Assembly: GCA_016763955.1 (NCBI GenBank)
Contig: JAESSU010000201.1
Location: 1-15,136 of the forward strand
Length of the DNA: 15,136 nucleotides
Source: Phycisphaeraceae bacterium
Lineage (GTDB): Bacteria > Planctomycetota > Phycisphaerae > Phycisphaerales > Phycisphaeraceae
Direction of reading: 5' to 3'
Part shown: positions 4,076 through 15,136 of the stretch, one piece after another
Layout of the letters: every line of letters begins with the position of its first letter
Numbering within the stretch: the stretch's first letter is position 1
Position numbers and translations under genes: made by a program
The notes under the pieces: generated by a model
What the model was told of the DNA's origin: nothing
The model's input: the letters and a program-made list of their open reading frames with translations, nothing else
Databases searched by the model: none

Positions 4076-5659
4076 TTAATCTTCTTCATCGTTCCAGCCA
4101 ACAGTCACAGTCTCCCCAGCCAAACGTCTTTCCAGCAGATCAGGGTTAGCTTCCAGTGCTTTGGTTTCACGGTACTGGGCGGCTTCTGCGGCCATGGTCC
4201 ATTTTGCTTCCATTCCCATTTCGTCAACCAGCTTGCGGATCTCTGCCAGAGTCAGTCGAAAGAATTCCTTACGGGGGTTGACCTTGTTGACTTTGGCTGA
4301 GTGGAATTCCTGGTGTAATCTGTATTCCAGTGCAGGTGCATCCTCACTGTAAAGCAATGTATGCACATCAAACTCAAATGGCACACTGGCATCTCCTAGT
4401 TCCTTGACTCGCTCCAATGGTTTAAGCCGACGGGTCAAGCCGATCTTATAAACGTTTTCACCAAACGAACCAATATTAGAGATGACATAGACGTGGCCAC
4501 ATTTGGTCAGTTGGGCTTGTGATTGTGCCCGCTGGCTTCTGGCTTCTGCCTCTTTCCACTTGACTTCCAACTCAGCAAGTTGCTGCTCGTATTTGTCACG
4601 TTCACCAGCGTGAGCCCCTTCGAGATGTTGACGGGCTTTGGCCATGGCATCTTCGAGCATTTTTTCTTCTTTTTCAGCATCTTTTTGAATTTTTTCCAAT
4701 TCAATTCTACGGCGGTTTTCCTCTTGCATGCGTGCTCGAATTGCTCGTTGTTCCTCACGCTCTTCAAGTTGCAGCACTAAAACCTTGACTCCCCAGTCCA
4801 ATTCGTCGAGTCTAGCCTGTAAATATTCAGGCAGAATTCTAGCGTTACGGAATGCGGACCCATTGAGATTAACAAGGTTGTACACATCCTGAATCTTCTT
4901 TTGCATCTTGCCATAGTTATCGTGTTTGATGTCTGACAGGATGCTATCCACGCCACCATTAAAAGCGTCAGTGATGAATGAAACAGCAGTGTCTCTACGA
5001 ACATTCTCTGCATACTGACAGTCGGCAACTCGATTTAATTTGACCAGTTGCTTGGTACGTTCGCGGGCAAGTTTTAGTTGTTTGCCAGCTTCTTTGTAAG
5101 AGTATTCTTCAGCTAGTTCATCGAAAGCACTGTGATTAGGAATAAGCCATTCATCTCCATAGCCGCGAACCTTGCGTTTCATGGCGGCAAGTCCATTGGT
5201 ATAAATCCTGTGATTTTTTTGGGCATCTAAAACATCTTCACCAACTTGCTTGGCTTGATCATTAGCGTTGTCGATGATTTTTATTGCGCTATGTGAGGCT
5301 TCGTCAAGGACGAGTTTTCTTTCCTTGCGGGCATCGGACAGGGTTTGTTTAGATTCTTTGGTGAGATTGTCGATTTCGGCGTTGATGTTTGTCAGGCGGG
5401 ATCGCATCTGGGCTTCTTCGGCATTCAAAGCTCTTTGTTTGTCTGCCGCTTTATGTTCGAGTTGCCTCTGTGCATCTTGGATTTGTATCGCCAATTCTCG
5501 CTTTTTGCTGGCAATTTCAGCTTCTACGTCAACAATTGGCTCGTACTTGCGAAGCGATTCAACATGATGATTAAGCTCTTCGTTTTTACGATAGATTAGG
5601 CCTGCAAAAACGATCAAGCCGACACATACGAGCAGCAGAATGATTACAACTATTCCCAC
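4076..5659 (-). CDS. Membrane-anchored DUF4041 + GIY-YIG (T5orf172) nuclease, SNIPE-like
   Basis: The 527-residue protein has four parts. An N-terminal transmembrane helix spans about residues 2-23 (GIVVIILLLVCVGLIVFAG). A long coiled coil spans about 40-150. A DUF4041-type region spans about 165-300, marked by 'RGYGDEWLIPN...FDELAEEYSYKEAG'. A second coiled coil (about 295-385) leads to a GIY-YIG nuclease of the T5orf172 type (about 388-470). In the nuclease I see GHVYVIS (388-394), YKIG (404-407), Arg410/411 and a probable metal-binding Glu445 in 'ALEYRLHQEF'. From memory, this architecture is that of SNIPE, an inner-membrane nuclease that cuts incoming phage DNA during injection. Here it would be a prophage superinfection-exclusion gene (inference). 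The start is GTG with AAGGGGAATCC directly upstream. It lies 30 bp behind the RHH gene, probably in one transcript, and converges with the ImmA-like gene. Confidence 0.85.
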   Translation of the reverse strand: MGIVVIILLLVCVGLIVFAGLIYRKNEELNHHVESLRKYEPIVDVEAEIASKKRELAIQIQDAQRQLEHKAADKQRALNAEEAQMRSRLTNINAEIDNLTKESKQTLSDARKERKLVLDEASHSAIKIIDNANDQAKQVGEDVLDAQKNHRIYTNGLAAMKRKVRGYGDEWLIPNHSAFDELAEEYSYKEAGKQLKLARERTKQLVKLNRVADCQYAENVRRDTAVSFITDAFNGGVDSILSDIKHDNYGKMQKKIQDVYNLVNLNGSAFRNARILPEYLQARLDELDWGVKVLVLQLEEREEQRAIRARMQEENRRRIELEKIQKDAEKEEKMLEDAMAKARQHLEGAHAGERDKYEQQLAELEVKWKEAEARSQRAQSQAQLTKCGHVYVISNIGSFGENVYKIGLTRRLKPLERVKELGDASVPFEFDVHTLLYSEDAPALEYRLHQEFHSAKVNKVNPRKEFFRLTLAEIRKLVDEMGMEAKWTMAAEAAQYRETKALEANPDLLERRLAGETVTVGWNDEED

Positions 5660-6473: not shown

Positions 6474-6809
6474 ATGACTGACACAGACGTAAAAACTCAG
6501 CATTCGCCCGGGCCGTGGAAGGCAATGCCAAGCAGCGACCGAACAGAGTGGTGGATAGACTCGCAAGACGGCGAAGATCTGGCATTAATCTACGAACTGC
6601 CAAACGCAGAAGCCAACGCCCGCCTGATCGCCGCTGCACCGGAGTTGCTGGAACGATTGCGTGAACACGTCCTCCACAGTCCCGGAATCTGTGGTGACAA
6701 CTGCCCGTCTTGCGGGCGCGACAATAAAGATTTCGGCGGCATCTGTGACGCAGAAGACTGTATCGGCGTAATGGATCGCGCCGCCATCGCCAAAACCACC
6801 ACTTGTTAA
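6474..6809 (+). CDS. Phage protein with NARLIAAAPELL motif and a Cys cluster
   Basis: The 111-residue protein has the widespread phage signature 'HSPGPWK' near the N-terminus (residues 10-16) and 'AEANARLIAAAPELLERL' (46-62). From memory, this signature is common in small early phage proteins of unknown function. The C-terminal part contains five cysteines at 73, 77, 80, 91 and 96 (CGDNCPSC...CDAEDC), which could form a zinc site. The start ATG at 6474 is preceded by a weak purine-rich stretch. It is the first gene after the terminator. No activity can be assigned; zinc binding is inference from Cys spacing. Confidence 0.7.
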   Translation: MTDTDVKTQHSPGPWKAMPSSDRTEWWIDSQDGEDLALIYELPNAEANARLIAAAPELLERLREHVLHSPGICGDNCPSCGRDNKDFGGICDAEDCIGVMDRAAIAKTTTC

Positions 6810-6853
6810 TCCGATATTTTTCATCACTCCAATTTACGGGAAGACACACAATC

Positions 6854-7450
6854 ATGGATGACACACGATACACAAACCATCACACCGCCGGTGACGAAGC
6901 CAGCCGCGTCCTTGCTCAGATTCAAGCTCAGGTTCGTGACGCAATGGAATCCGGCAATCTGCCCCCCAAAATGCTGTATGCCCAGCCGGGCGTAAGTCGA
7001 TCAACCGTCGCTCGGATGCTCAGCAATGAAACACCCTCATCGGGCGACCAGCAGTTCTCGACCATCTTCCACATCATCGACCGCCTGCCAGAAGACCTGC
7101 GTTTGCCGGTGATTCAAACGCTCGTGCGGAACTGGGATGTCAAAGTCATTCCCGTGCAGGACATCGATCTCGACCTTAACGGTGACAACATTGTTGACGC
7201 GACCGACGAACGCATGGCCACGATGCACCTTAATGAAACAGTGACTCGCATGGTCAGCCACATCATTAACGCTGTCGAGGATGGCAAGGTGGATGAGAAC
7301 GAACAGGCCGTTGCACAACGATTGCGGTCTGAGATCAACGCCAGCGTTAGCCAGGTGGTTGAAATCGCAGTCACGATGGCAAAACAAAGTACCCAACGGC
7401 GTAAGGCAAGGATGCCGCAAGGGCCACGGTTGGCCCGCGCCGGTTTTTGA
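6854..7450 (+). CDS. HTH regulator-like protein with two EF-hand/dockerin-like loops
   Basis: The likely start is ATG at 6854 (MDDTRYTNHH), giving 198 residues. An upstream TTG at 6803 would add 17 residues but has little support. Residues about 35-57 (LPPKMLYAQPGVSRSTVARML) read as a helix-turn-helix, followed by a helical region to about 95. This resembles phage CII-like regulators in layout. Residues 107-118 (DLNGDNIVDATD) match a calcium-loop pattern of the dockerin/EF-hand type (D-x-N-x-D...D-x-x-D). Residues 139-150 (NAVEDGKVDENE) are a second, degenerate loop. The C-terminus is basic (QRRKARM...PRLARAG). A terminator-like hairpin overlaps the 3' end. A transcriptional role is inference; calcium binding is a motif-level guess. 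Confidence 0.6.
   Translation: MDDTRYTNHHTAGDEASRVLAQIQAQVRDAMESGNLPPKMLYAQPGVSRSTVARMLSNETPSSGDQQFSTIFHIIDRLPEDLRLPVIQTLVRNWDVKVIPVQDIDLDLNGDNIVDATDERMATMHLNETVTRMVSHIINAVEDGKVDENEQAVAQRLRSEINASVSQVVEIAVTMAKQSTQRRKARMPQGPRLARAGF
7415..7448 (+). terminator. Probable terminator at the end of the HTH gene, just before the tmRNA-like RNA
   Basis: CCG (7415-7417) pairs with CGG (7441-7443), and GGGCCA (7421-7426) with TGGCCC (7431-7436) around a CGGT loop, with a small internal loop between the two stems. TTTTT (7444-7448) follows directly. It overlaps the last codons of the HTH gene and ends 12 bases before the tRNA-like RNA. Confidence 0.45.
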
Positions 7451-7459
7451 TTAGAGGCA

Positions 7460-7541
7460 GGGGCCGAGACAGGCGTTCGATTGGCGACAAAGCCCCATGT
7501 GGGACGTTGCCAAGACGGGAGTTCAAATCTCCCCGGCTCCA
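7460..7541 (+). ncRNA. Minimal tmRNA-like (ssrA-like) RNA lacking the tag region
   Basis: GGGGCCG (7460-7466) pairs with CGGCTCC (7534-7540) as a 7-bp acceptor stem with G3:U70 (7462/7538), the alanyl-tRNA synthetase identity pair found in tRNA-Ala and tmRNA; the discriminator is A7541. A T-arm follows the norm: GGGAG (7517-7521), TTCAAAT loop, CTCCC (7529-7533). The 5' part, GGGGCCG-5 nt-GG(CG)TTCGA(TT)GG, resembles the conserved tmRNA start (GGGGCNG-5 nt-GG-N-TTCGA) and not a normal tRNA D-arm. Where tmRNA has P2, pseudoknots and message, there is one hairpin. Its 8-bp stem is TTGGCGAC (7481-7488) / GTTGCCAA (7506-7513), with an inner CCC/GGG stem and an ATGT loop. There is no anticodon arm, tag frame or encoded CCA. 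It may be a tmRNA mimic, a decayed ssrA copy, or part of an attachment site. Confidence 0.6.
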
Positions 7542-7592
7542 TTGAAACCATATCGAGCATGTCCTCGTGATGGTCAAAAAAGGAATACACCC

Positions 7593-7919
7593 ATGCACAC
7601 AGCATCCAATGAACATCACAGCCCTATCGACAGCGTCCAGATCAGTGAGAAGGCCCAGCAAGCTAGCACTCGCGAAATGTTGGAACAGGCTAAGAGAGAA
7701 GGTAAGCCGGTCGTGCAGGACATCGACGCAGCTATGACCGTCTACGTGTTTGCAGTCGTGTTAATCGTCGTTGCTTTAATTGGCGGGGTAATTGGGTTGT
7801 GTTACTGGGCGGCTGGTAACGCAGGGCGATGTTTATTCCTTGTGTCGTTACTGCTGGTTGCAGCTGCTCTGGTAGGTGCGATGTGGGATAAGACAAATAG
7901 GCGGGGGATCAAATTTTGA
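7593..7919 (+). CDS. Small protein with two transmembrane helices
   Basis: The chosen start is ATG at 7593 (MHTASNEHHSP) because AAAAAGGA lies 9 bases upstream; the frame is open further back but that part overlaps the tmRNA-like RNA. The 108-residue product has a polar N-terminal half of about 48 residues. Two hydrophobic segments follow, VYVFAVVLIVVALIGGVIGL and CLFLVSLLLVAAALVGAMW, and then a short basic tail (KTNRRGIKF). Two helices with a charged tail could suit a holin-like or superinfection-related membrane protein, but no endolysin is nearby and I do not recognise the family. The stop overlaps the TTG start of the next gene. Confidence 0.65.
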   Translation: MHTASNEHHSPIDSVQISEKAQQASTREMLEQAKREGKPVVQDIDAAMTVYVFAVVLIVVALIGGVIGLCYWAAGNAGRCLFLVSLLLVAAALVGAMWDKTNRRGIKF

Positions 7920-8123: not shown

Positions 8124-9629
8124 ATGATACAGCAAGCACAACAAGCGGTGACAATCCAAAACGTGGGGCCAATCGAACAACTTAAAATCACCTGCCCACC
8201 CGACGGCGGTGTGGTGGTATTGCGGGGCCGAAATGGGTCTGGCAAATCAACCGCACTTAAATCAGCGGAATCATTGGCAGGCAGTAAAGGCAAGCTATCG
8301 TCACGCGACGAGTCACGTCAAAGCGGCCACGTTCAAGGTTTTGGTGTCAGACTTAATATCGGCAACAAGACCACACGTGCTGGTGAGATCGAAGTGGCAA
8401 GCCTTGAGGGTAAGCTCAATATTGCTGACCTGGTAGAACCACTGCTTAAAGATCCCGCAGCCGCAGACCGCCAGCGGATCAAAGCATTGGTCAGCTTGAC
8501 CGGCGATGCTCCGACTTGTGCCCAGTTCGCCAGTGTGATCGGTGATGACATGGCTGATTTTATTGGCGGCGCAACATGGTCAAGCAAAGACACGCTGGAA
8601 GTCGCTGTCAAAGCCAAACGTGATCTGGAAGGTGCTGCCCGGCTCAAAGAAAACGAAGCTAATCTGCGAGAAGGGCAGGCGAAAGGGCTGGAGGAATCTG
8701 CTAAGGACATTGACATGTCTGGCGAGTCAGATGAGCAGGTGTTGCGTGAAGCTCACATGCAGGCATCTGGCAATATGCGGGTGCTGCGTGAGCGTCAGGA
8801 TGCTGCGGTACAGTCGGCTGGTAATTTGGCCAAAGCTCGCATTGCTTTGCATGATGTGAAGACGGCATACACTGGGCCGACTGTGGATGAAGCGACGCAG
8901 GAAGTTCTTGCCAAAGATCGTTCTGTTGGATTCTCTGTCAGCATCGTCAGCCAGCTAGAAAAGGAACTTGCCAAGCTTGAAAAAGAGCTTGCCGAGGCGC
9001 GTGCAAACGCAAAACATTGCGATATTCAACGTGATGCTGCAAAAACAACCCTTAAAGCCGCCGAAGAATACACCGAAGCCGTGGCCATGTATGAGGCGGT
9101 ACTTGAAGGTACTGCGACCAAAGCACCAGATCAATCCGAATTAGATGTCGCTCAACAAGCATTAGACGAAGCAAGTATCGCACTAGAAACCGGGGCGATC
9201 ATCCGCATGGCACAAGCCAAACTGGCCGAAGCCGAATCGGTACGTAAAATCGCCAACGACGCTGCAATCATCGCTGACCGCCTGCGTCTTGCTGCTGCTC
9301 AGATCGATGACGTGTTAAGTGCCGCCATCAAGACACCTCAGTTGTTTGTCCGTGATGGCCGGTTGTACACCATGCACGCTACTCGTGGCGAGATGCTGTT
9401 TCATGAACTCTCTGAGGGTGAACGTTGGACTCTGGCATTTGAAATCGCCGCTCCAATCGTGGGTGAACGCGGGATTATGATTTTGCCTCAAGGTGCATGG
9501 GAATCGCTAGATCCTGACAACCGCCGTCATGTTGCAAGCCTTGCGATTCATTACAAGATCATCGTGCTGACCGCCGAAGCAACTAGCGATGAACTGCGGG
9601 CTGAGTTGTTTGAAGGGCAGGTGGCGTGA
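8124..9629 (+). CDS. SMC/Rad50-like AAA ATPase (phage recombination)
   Basis: A 501-residue protein with an ABC/SMC-type split ATPase. The N-terminal Walker A GRNGSGKST (residues 35-43) follows 'GVVVLR'. A long coiled coil fills the middle (about 155-400; for example ELEKELAKLEKELAEARA). The C-terminal head has a signature-like 'ELSEGERW' (428-434) and a D-loop-like 'ESLDPDNRR' (460-468). The Walker B strand reads IMILPQGAW (451-459), without the usual Asp-Glu pair at its end. Proteins of this type accompany phage exonuclease/annealing genes and probably work in DNA end processing or recombination. The head lacks the size and zinc hook of full-length Rad50. ATG at 8124 has GGGAG 8 bases upstream. 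A YqaJ exonuclease gene lies two genes downstream, supporting a recombination role. Confidence 0.8.
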   Translation: MIQQAQQAVTIQNVGPIEQLKITCPPDGGVVVLRGRNGSGKSTALKSAESLAGSKGKLSSRDESRQSGHVQGFGVRLNIGNKTTRAGEIEVASLEGKLNIADLVEPLLKDPAAADRQRIKALVSLTGDAPTCAQFASVIGDDMADFIGGATWSSKDTLEVAVKAKRDLEGAARLKENEANLREGQAKGLEESAKDIDMSGESDEQVLREAHMQASGNMRVLRERQDAAVQSAGNLAKARIALHDVKTAYTGPTVDEATQEVLAKDRSVGFSVSIVSQLEKELAKLEKELAEARANAKHCDIQRDAAKTTLKAAEEYTEAVAMYEAVLEGTATKAPDQSELDVAQQALDEASIALETGAIIRMAQAKLAEAESVRKIANDAAIIADRLRLAAAQIDDVLSAAIKTPQLFVRDGRLYTMHATRGEMLFHELSEGERWTLAFEIAAPIVGERGIMILPQGAWESLDPDNRRHVASLAIHYKIIVLTAEATSDELRAELFEGQVA

Positions 9630-13454: not shown

Positions 13455-14306
13455 GTGCAAGACTTTGCGTACAAAATAATCAAGTGGCAGGAGCGTCATA
13501 GCAACGACGCTCAAAGACGCTGCGGAGGACGATGGGTTGCCGTACCCACATCATTCGACAGTGTCGGCCTGAAGGTCTTGATGGGTCACGCCGATGGCCC
13601 ATCAGCATTCGGCTGCTACGTATTACTTGCGGAACTCGCTGCCAGGATGCCAACTCCTGGAGTGCTAGCTAATGCTGAGCTGGCACTGGACGCAGGTACT
13701 ATGGCCTCAATTTTTGGCATATCTGATCACGCGCTTCAGACTGCCATCGATCTAATGATGTTGCCGCACATCAAATGGATCGAACATGTTTCGTATCCGG
13801 ATTGTATCCAAGTGCCGACCTTGGACAATCCGGAACTACTCCGGAATGACTCCGTATCAGCTACGGAACCACTCCGTACTGATTCCGTCCTCGCGCATGC
13901 GTGTTTGCAGCAGCAGCAAGCTAGCAAGCAAGCAGAGGGGGGAGTGGGGGGAGAAATCCACGCACTGCTTCGGCGAGTCCGTGGAAAATCAAGTCACGTG
14001 CCGACCGTGGCAAATGCTCTGCGATCCACCGCACAAGTCGTGACGCTCTGGTTTGACGTGACCCAGGACGAAACGGTCAAAGCGCCACTTGGCGTGATGG
14101 CAGCGAGAGTGGCTGACGGCAACGTTGGGGATATTCCCGGATTGACCTGCAAAATGATCGTGCATGCAATCGAGAAGCAGTTTGTTCACACCATTAACGG
14201 CACTGACGTCACCAACACCAAACTCACACACAACAAGCTCGGTATGTACATCAACGGCGAACTGGCTGTGCCTGTCGCTCAACTCGGAGAGGCTATTTAC
14301 GCATGA
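13455..14306 (+). CDS. Putative phage replication-organiser protein
   Basis: I chose GTG at 13455 (MQDFAYKIIKWQ), 283 residues, because AGGAG lies at 13439-13443 and this avoids overlapping the RdgC-like gene. ATG at 13380 or 13350 would give longer products overlapping that gene by 32 or 62 bp, so the start is uncertain. In the full-frame sequence, 'RWVAVPTSFDSVGLKVLMGHADGPSAFGCYVLLAELAA' followed by 'LDAGTMASIFGISDHALQTAIDLMMLPHIKWIEHV' reads as a winged-helix domain of the phage replisome-organiser type. A Gln/Lys-rich linker (QQQQASKQ) and a helical C-terminal domain follow. It lies directly before the DnaB-like gene with an ATGA overlap, a usual place for a replication initiator or helicase loader. 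The function is inferred from layout and position. Confidence 0.6.
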   Translation: MQDFAYKIIKWQERHSNDAQRRCGGRWVAVPTSFDSVGLKVLMGHADGPSAFGCYVLLAELAARMPTPGVLANAELALDAGTMASIFGISDHALQTAIDLMMLPHIKWIEHVSYPDCIQVPTLDNPELLRNDSVSATEPLRTDSVLAHACLQQQQASKQAEGGVGGEIHALLRRVRGKSSHVPTVANALRSTAQVVTLWFDVTQDETVKAPLGVMAARVADGNVGDIPGLTCKMIVHAIEKQFVHTINGTDVTNTKLTHNKLGMYINGELAVPVAQLGEAIYA

Positions 14307-15136
14307 CTTCCAAACGCGACAACCGCAAACCTATAAATTTTGATTTATCGAAAATATTCGATCAATTGCCACCCAATAGCTATGAAGCAGAATGCGCTTT
14401 ACTTGGCTCAATGATCCTAGACAAGAGCGTGATCGGCGATGTGATGGAGATCGTTGCTAGCCATGAAGATTTGTTTAAGCAGTCACATCAGGCGATCTAC
14501 GCCGCAGTGGTGGATATGTTTGATAAAGCTGAACCAGTCGATCTGGTCGGCTTGAAAAACCGGCTCGAACTTAGTGGCCAAATCGAACATGTGGGCGGAG
14601 TGCAAGGACTGCTTGAACTTGTCGAGGCAGTACCCTCAGCAGTGAGTGCGCCGTACTACGCCAAGATCATCCGTGACCATGCGATCCGCCGCCGTGCTGT
14701 TGACGCATTGTCTAAGAGCCTGCACACAGCCCATGAACAACGTGAGATGCCTGTGCAAGAGTTGATGGATCAGATTGAGGCAGACATCTTCGCAGTGGCT
14801 AGCAAGGTGATGACAGGAGCATCCAATGAACCAACAACAATAGCTACTGAAGTTGTGCGAATGTTTGATCTGCTTGATAGCGGGCAGCGTGTCGCAGGTG
14901 TCTCGTCTGGTTTTATCGACCTTGACGACATGACCAGTGGATTACAGCCCGGCGACATGGCCATCCTTGCTGCACGGCCATCGATGGGCAAGACTGCGTT
15001 GACTGAACGCATCTTATCATCCCGCAGTGGCGTGGACTCAATGAAGATACGCCGTCGCATGATCGGGCCAGATGATTACAAGGAACTACGTAATGCCAAA
15101 GACGCGATTGGCAATTCGCCATTACTCATTGATGAC
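14303..15136 (+). CDS. DnaB-like replicative helicase, partial at window edge, internal segment missing
   Basis: ATG at 14303 overlaps the previous stop. The frame is open for 278 codons to the last base, so the C-terminus is not visible. Residues about 20-125 are the DnaB N-terminal domain (LPPNSYEAECALLGSMILDKSVIGDVMEIV...FKQSHQAIYAAV). A linker follows, then the RecA-like domain start 'GVSSGFIDLDDMTSGLQPGDMAILAARPSMGKTAL' with Walker A Lys230. The next residues, 'TERILSSRSGVDSMKIRRR', correspond to E. coli DnaB sequence lying about 28 residues further on. The strand and helix carrying the 'FSLEM' motif with the catalytic Glu are thus absent, in frame. The product would be a hexameric 5'-3' fork helicase if intact; as read it should not hydrolyse ATP normally. 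This may be a true deletion, a defective prophage or an assembly error. Confidence 0.85.
   Translation, partial: MTSKRDNRKPINFDLSKIFDQLPPNSYEAECALLGSMILDKSVIGDVMEIVASHEDLFKQSHQAIYAAVVDMFDKAEPVDLVGLKNRLELSGQIEHVGGVQGLLELVEAVPSAVSAPYYAKIIRDHAIRRRAVDALSKSLHTAHEQREMPVQELMDQIEADIFAVASKVMTGASNEPTTIATEVVRMFDLLDSGQRVAGVSSGFIDLDDMTSGLQPGDMAILAARPSMGKTALTERILSSRSGVDSMKIRRRMIGPDDYKELRNAKDAIGNSPLLIDD

Follow-up and report, generated by a model that had tools for sequence, protein, structure and literature searches.

We describe an 82-nucleotide (nt) RNA gene at positions 7460-7541 of the plus strand of a 15,136-nt stretch of DNA from a Phycisphaeraceae bacterium (contig JAESSU010000201.1 of assembly GCA_016763955.1), the whole of which is called here the window and is contig C77 of the source assembly. 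The element was confirmed as a complete message-less transfer-messenger RNA (tmRNA), consisting of the tRNA-like domain and a P2 connector that a hairpin caps; this tmRNA-like RNA gene and its relatives, a widespread family, are termed here minis. The conserved signals for alanine charging and SmpB contact point to a role in which the mini would be alanylated, bound by host SmpB and EF-Tu, and would divert stalled ribosomes without tagging, and we give this full proposal, which rests on sequence comparison, a probability of roughly 0.6. Phages may use the mini to interfere with the clearance of stuck ribosomes by their hosts.

Nearly all bacteria have ribosome rescue by tmRNA. If the proposal is true, a common phage RNA that mimics the entry half of tmRNA would be a case of viruses controlling translation quality control by means of an RNA, and would offer a natural probe of a tmRNA that delivers alanine and no message.

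Relation to known tmRNA forms

A 2014 paper labels the tmRNA of mycobacteriophage DS6A as 'TLD only' (TLD, tRNA-like domain), and a molecule similar to that of DS6A strongly inhibits tmRNA whether or not it can be charged (PMC4131195). The 2025 tmRNA database paper places the inhibition by a TLD-only molecule in Escherichia coli and counts nine 'standard, no CDS' forms (CDS, coding sequence; PMC11915505), among which DS6A presumably stands. The DS6A form is phage-borne, has little beyond the tRNA-like domain of tmRNA and lacks a tag frame (PMC4131195, PMC11915505), and the window element likewise lies on phage-like DNA and has the tRNA-like domain with no tag frame; DS6A, however, is a single phage on record, known here by description and not by sequence, whereas the family of the window element is widespread. 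What is already known is the TLD-only kind, in this one phage, together with the inhibition of tmRNA by such a molecule; what is new is the breadth of the family, the conserved connector and the conserved charging signal. No report of a wider family of message-less tmRNAs was found in open-licence PubMed Central listings.

Mitochondrial tmRNA (RF02544) and the CDS-less plastid tmRNA of Mallomonadaceae, of about 65 bp, likewise apparently have no tag frame (PMC11915505), but both belong to organelles, permutation is usual in the mitochondrial gene, and the best match of the window element is RF00023, the standard tmRNA. With the latter the element shares the acceptor, the D-loop, the position of P2, the linker and the T-arm, while it lacks the tag frame and the pseudoknots and is about 300 nt shorter. 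A near-identical design is found in a laboratory TLD fragment (PDB 2CZJ), in which 25 nt of the 5' end and 34 nt of the 3' end are joined via a UUCG loop and which binds SmpB; it differs in being engineered from Thermus thermophilus and in having no 3' CCA (PMC3985003). As to phage effects on host tmRNA, the Lacusarx phage paper already suggests, citing Mao, that a tmRNA carried by a phage may work against tagging by the tmRNA of the host (PMC5648845), and the excision of CP4-57 provides another precedent for prophage-tmRNA control (PMC10107115).

Architecture of the window element

The first-pass annotation, made from the letters of the window, had described a 7-bp acceptor with G3:U70, a T-arm, a 5' pattern with TTCGA, and an 8-bp stem with an inner hairpin, and all of these parts lie where it had placed them. 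In the sequence and the predicted fold, the 5' acceptor strand GGGGCCG (7460-7466, with G3 at 7462) pairs over 7 bp with CGGCTCC (7534-7540, with U70 at 7538), followed by the discriminator A at 7541, which together make an alanine-type acceptor. Alignment to RF00023 places a tmRNA-type D-loop at 7467-7480, with GG at 7472-7473 and UCGA at 7477-7480. The P2-like stem is formed by 8 bp between 7481-7488 and 7506-7513, supported by the fold and by covariation among five sequences, and it encloses an inner 3-bp hairpin (7493-7503, pairing 7493-7495 with 7501-7503) where the message and pseudoknots would be; this hairpin is seen in the fold, in the covariation alignments and in an alignment-free parse. 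A GAC linker (7514-7516) leads to the T-arm GGGAG-TTCAAAT-CTCCC (7517-7533). Neither the fold nor ARAGORN gives the window element an anticodon arm, and it contains no reading frame for a tag, with its resume and stop codons, the P2 strands being only 17 nt apart; nor does it contain pseudoknots PK1-PK4, 13 nt standing for 304 positions of the RF00023 model.

The Rfam tmRNA model RF00023 aligns end to end with 7460-7544 (model positions 1-374, 44.8 bits, E 3.6e-15, cmscan), which means that the element retains both ends of a tmRNA and has lost the message, though the score is just below the gathering score of 47. RF00023 is the best Rfam match of the element, and one weaker match belongs to the same clan. 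ARAGORN called no tRNA or tmRNA over the window. The predicted minimum free energy of the element is -35.1 kcal/mol (z -2.48), and 2 of 200 shuffles were equally low, so that folding energy taken alone gives only moderate support. A chance fold is ruled out by a compensatory second copy and by the pairing of 101 family members described below, and an ordinary tRNA by the missing anticodon arm and the ARAGORN negative, in line with the earlier claim that the element is not one. That claim's larger part, a minimal tag-less tmRNA, is borne out by the Rfam alignment, the negative ARAGORN call, the relatives with their covariation and the lack of long identity to the host tmRNA gene ssrA.

Second copy and relatives in planctomycete genomes

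The source assembly (559 contigs, 78.5% complete) carries a full-length tmRNA on contig C91 (157 bits, tag ANDNVIGRIGFASAQPLRMAA) and an SmpB gene on C457. It also carries a second mini on another phage-like contig (C25:1819-1903), which differs from the window element at 6 of 82 mature positions: two T-stem pairs are changed on both sides, in a compensatory manner, and two bases differ in the inner hairpin. The neighbours of the two copies are unlike, with an Erf-like annealing protein downstream on C25 and a YqaJ/RecE-like exonuclease and DnaB helicase in the window. A covariance model built from these two copies (R1) finds both in the source assembly, where they are its own training pair.

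Over 101 genomes, R1 gave 13 matches, comprising five minis, six full tmRNAs, one tRNA and one undecided locus (L018). The three further clear minis are L010 (genome G002), L012 (G003) and L011 (G008), with RF00023 scores of 59.9, 51.1 and 40.6, the first two above the gathering score and the last below it. L012 is flanked by homologues of the gene upstream of the window element (64% identity over 196 aa) and of the downstream ATPase (67% over 252 aa), which puts it at the corresponding position of a related element; L011 belongs to a phage recombination module, with an SSB-like gene on one side and a helicase gene on the other. The check for relatives and covariation proposed in the first-pass annotation thus succeeded in five near sequences and again in 101 wider ones. 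In the five-sequence alignment 99.1% of pair cells pair, against 36-54% in slid controls, and 12 of 23 pairs show changes on both sides, including seven of the eight pairs of the P2-like stem. The acceptor is invariant among these five, with all seven pairs, G3:U70 included, identical.

A scan of 400 genomes of the order gave matches in 157, and among the loci inspected one more mini was recognised (L021, genome G342); the remaining new inspected loci were full tmRNAs, a tRNA, members of a class of about 70 nt, or unclear (L033, L034). The elements of about 70 nt (L025 1501-1572, L029 1501-1572 and L041 1501-1573) are tRNA-like, have a long D-stem and a single hairpin, come from the order of the window, and are each preceded by a similar GC-rich stretch. 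At the undecided locus L018 (1501-1662), a 71-nt mini-like RNA adjoins a tRNA to which ARAGORN assigns the anticodon UUA (stop codon UAA).

Relatives in viral and wider genome collections

Pattern scans of IMG/VR returned 26, at least 120 and at least 120 stretches, and a GTDB scan returned 86; the first IMG/VR pattern had given no match, and the sole match of the second (L009) was a chance match. A strict filter demanded the D-loop motif, seven of seven acceptor pairs and five of five T-stem pairs. After this filter, and after removal of 15 hits called as tRNA by ARAGORN and 18 distinct sequences of a 72-nt class, IMG/VR and the genome contigs together held at least 174 distinct sequences in at least 101 clusters at 80% identity; three members that passed (L057, L196, L119) were judged false by eye and removed, leaving 98 clusters and 171 distinct sequences. 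One of the 15 removed hits, L369 (the same locus as L010), is a true mini that ARAGORN calls tRNA-Phe. Minis occur in at least 186 viral loci.

A second model, R2, was run over 100 chosen loci and gave 101 aligned sequences, in which 96.9% of pair cells pair (slid controls, 42-54%) and 733 cells show changes on both sides, against a shuffle mean of 211 and with none of 500 shuffles as high; this alignment was fitted to R2 itself, which favours the pairing figures, and its count of further pair types was equalled by 13 of 500 shuffles. When 99 sequences were parsed without an alignment, the P2 stem appeared in 86; the other 13 failed this parse, so that a minority of the clusters may be false members. 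The inner part commonly resembles AAAGCC-GCACGC-GGAAC. Among the matches listed, CCA is encoded in 39 of 192 distinct sequences (the 72-nt class still included), and ARAGORN calls a tmRNA in four of 186 viral loci, and for the two of these that are among the 44 viral records treated below (L178 and L220) the best match of Infernal is a stretch of about 80 nt.

Eight Candidatus Poribacteria assemblies (L287, L290, L304, L306, L319, L333, L345 and L348) each contain one 83-nt mini (GGGGGTGAAAGGATTCGAC... or near to it), and in six of these assemblies a full-length tmRNA match lies elsewhere as well; the gene next to the mini of L319 encodes a pyridoxal-dependent decarboxylase. To our knowledge, a cellular tag-less tmRNA retained alongside a normal tmRNA would have no precedent. 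The 72-nt class (L295, L314, L321, L353, L361 and others, mostly titled Eremiobacterota/WPS-2) is a tRNA-like element with a short D-arm and with G3:U70, although the pattern itself demanded U70; it occurs in two copies on several contigs, and its ARAGORN anticodons conflict.

Charging and SmpB-contact signals

Two of the collection patterns, one for IMG/VR and one for GTDB, forced U70, and the sequences that they returned therefore cannot test it; the third IMG/VR scan left the acceptor free. Among the matches listed, 94 distinct sequences fit the pattern of this acceptor-free scan and pass the filter, and 93 of them have G3:U70, as do 70 of the 71 distinct sequences that the scan was the first to bring. 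The sole exception in both counts is L196, one of the members judged false.

We take position 7515 of the linker to correspond to A334 in the tmRNA of E. coli, and 7479 presumably corresponds to G19. None of the patterns constrained the A334 equivalent, and among the matches listed 95 of 98 clusters, or 168 of 171 distinct sequences, have A there. In E. coli numbering, A334 together with U17 holds Trp122 of SmpB, and G19 is an SmpB contact (PMC8363625).

Carriers and cultured phages

SmpB (PF01668) was found in none of 44 mini-bearing viral records, which are possibly fragments, and in none of seven cultured phage records; given its lack in these 51 carrier records, SmpB of the host would be needed. 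The tmRNA model matches all 44 viral records, 37 of them above the cut-off; in 43 records its best match is about 80 nt long, and in the one with L179 it is a piece of 13 nt. No full-length tmRNA was seen in the 44 records, the longest other match being 122 nt at 20.5 bits.

Among 17 inspected records of a phage collection (L371-L378, L384-L392), seven carry a mini, all from cultured Streptomyces phages (pSt2308, BRock, LuckySocke, GiJojo, Shaeky, Alone3 and Riptide). These phages came to light through similarity to other family members, and G3:U70 and A334 are present in all seven minis, which lie in tRNA clusters with no RNA annotated over them; an annotated hypothetical protein overlaps that of GiJojo, and that of LuckySocke lies at about 17977-18054 of OR725497.1. 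The tmRNA model detects six of the seven, five above the cut-off, and misses that of Riptide (L373), a divergent mini; Riptide, alone of the seven, also has a full-length tmRNA with the tag ANSKFAFALAA (L393 1501-1767; PV654398.1 94862-95130). Three records with a called or annotated tmRNA were rejected, namely SM1 (L371), cr50_1 (L391) and Wakanda (L390), with weak R2 matches of 25.1, 18.7 and 19.9 bits, respectively; the rest held tRNAs, a full tmRNA (L375), weak and undecided matches (L374, L377, L378, L392) or no match (L389). The mini is missed by ARAGORN in the window, called tRNA-Phe in a relative and unannotated in the seven cultured phages, and these phages make it directly testable.

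Proposed function and alternative explanations

We infer the transcription, processing, charging, SmpB binding and ribosomal outcome of the mini from its sequence. In the proposed mechanism, RNase P and 3' nucleases of the host would excise the mini from an early transcript and CCA would be added, host AlaRS would charge it with alanine through G3:U70, host SmpB and EF-Tu would bring the alanyl-mini to stalled ribosomes in competition with host tmRNA, and the nascent chain would be transferred onto its alanine. Since the mini offers no resume codon, the chain would be left untagged for proteolysis. The conserved charging and SmpB-contact signals suggest entry into the first half of trans-translation, and with no message the second half cannot follow. 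An alanylated competitor or diverter would fit the conserved G3:U70, the conserved SmpB-contact base and the DS6A precedent, and because SmpB titration alone would not keep G3:U70, a charged dead end or a tag-free substrate is favoured over a passive sponge.

Several observations weigh against this proposal. The published inhibition needed no charging, yet G3:U70 is near-invariant, so that simple SmpB titration fails to explain its conservation. The window does not encode the CCA end of its element. The collection patterns demanded UCGA in the D-loop, which is therefore not independent evidence; in the five members found without this demand (L011, L021 and the phages BRock, Alone3 and Riptide) UCGA varies, and the G and A aligned with G19 and A20 are kept. 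Finally, the mini of Riptide beside a full tmRNA, together with the minis of Poribacteria, means that the role need be neither phage-specific nor directed against a host. The wider statement, that phages of many hosts carry an alanine-charged message-less tmRNA that commandeers SmpB and EF-Tu for tag-free capture of stalled ribosomes during infection and that some bacteria, the Poribacteria, keep their own version beside a normal tmRNA, is a plausible and still tentative extension.

The best-surviving alternative, which we consider unlikely, is that the mini replaces tmRNA and frees stalled ribosomes with one added alanine and no degradation tag. We know of no route by which the chain would be released without a stop codon on the RNA, which speaks against such rescue, while the conserved G3:U70 argues that charging, and hence peptide transfer, matters. 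Tag-less mitochondrial tmRNA is retained together with a mitochondrion-targeted SmpB (PMC11915505), a parallel in its favour; the tested TLD-only molecule, however, inhibited tmRNA (PMC4131195, PMC11915505).

It is improbable that the mini is a decoy for a host nuclease, a toxin or AlaRS that shields phage or host tRNAs: the minis of the cultured Streptomyces phages do lie in tRNA clusters, and among the matches listed at least one ordinary tRNA is present elsewhere in 38 of 186 viral loci, but the other 148 stretches hold no other tRNA, and a decoy would not require the conserved SmpB-contact A334. Comparably improbable is transcript punctuation, in which the tRNA-like fold would direct cuts by RNase P and a 3' nuclease in an early operon with no role at the ribosome. 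The window mini is indeed intergenic between same-strand genes, and a rough tiling of open reading frames (ORFs) gives same-strand neighbours on both sides in 80 of 141 viral loci among the matches listed (by the same tiling, 46 of these 141 minis fall within an ORF of at least 100 aa on either strand); for this purpose, however, G3:U70, A334 and the conserved inner hairpin are unneeded, and an ordinary tRNA would serve. A relic or attachment-site fragment of host ssrA is highly improbable, as the first-pass annotation had argued, because both halves are intact, exact identity with the host tmRNA extends over 13 nt at most, covariation is strong, and none of the 19 window proteins scanned with PHROGs matches an integrase.

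Genomic neighbourhood in the window

The window contig is phage-like, carrying phage recombination and replication genes. The gap that holds the mini, 142 bp long, is bounded upstream by an ORF of the same direction (6803-7450, plus strand, 215 aa from TTG), without a Pfam or PHROG match and with its homologue at the same place in L012, and downstream by a gene at 7593-7919 (plus), which probably starts at ATG 7593 after AAAGGAA and by eye looks like a small membrane protein. Farther downstream on the same strand, profile matches identify an AAA ATPase (8124-9629, Pfam AAA_23), the YqaJ/RecE-like phage exonuclease (9895-10869) and the DnaB-like replicative helicase (14303-15136), cut by the window end. 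Searches with blastn gave no match of window 7400-7600 to phages or of the element to plasmids, and a scan of 7380-7640 found no sigma-70 promoter site and one terminator-like site in the end of the upstream gene, a count within shuffle expectation.

Elsewhere in the window, a minus-strand gene at 4076-5659 encodes a protein matching DUF4041, T5orf172/MUG113 and phrog_1847. Two overlapping minus-strand ORFs lie at 1681-2280 and 2219-2794; the former has just a weak LAGLIDADG match, under the cut-off, and the latter a sigma-70 region 2 match.
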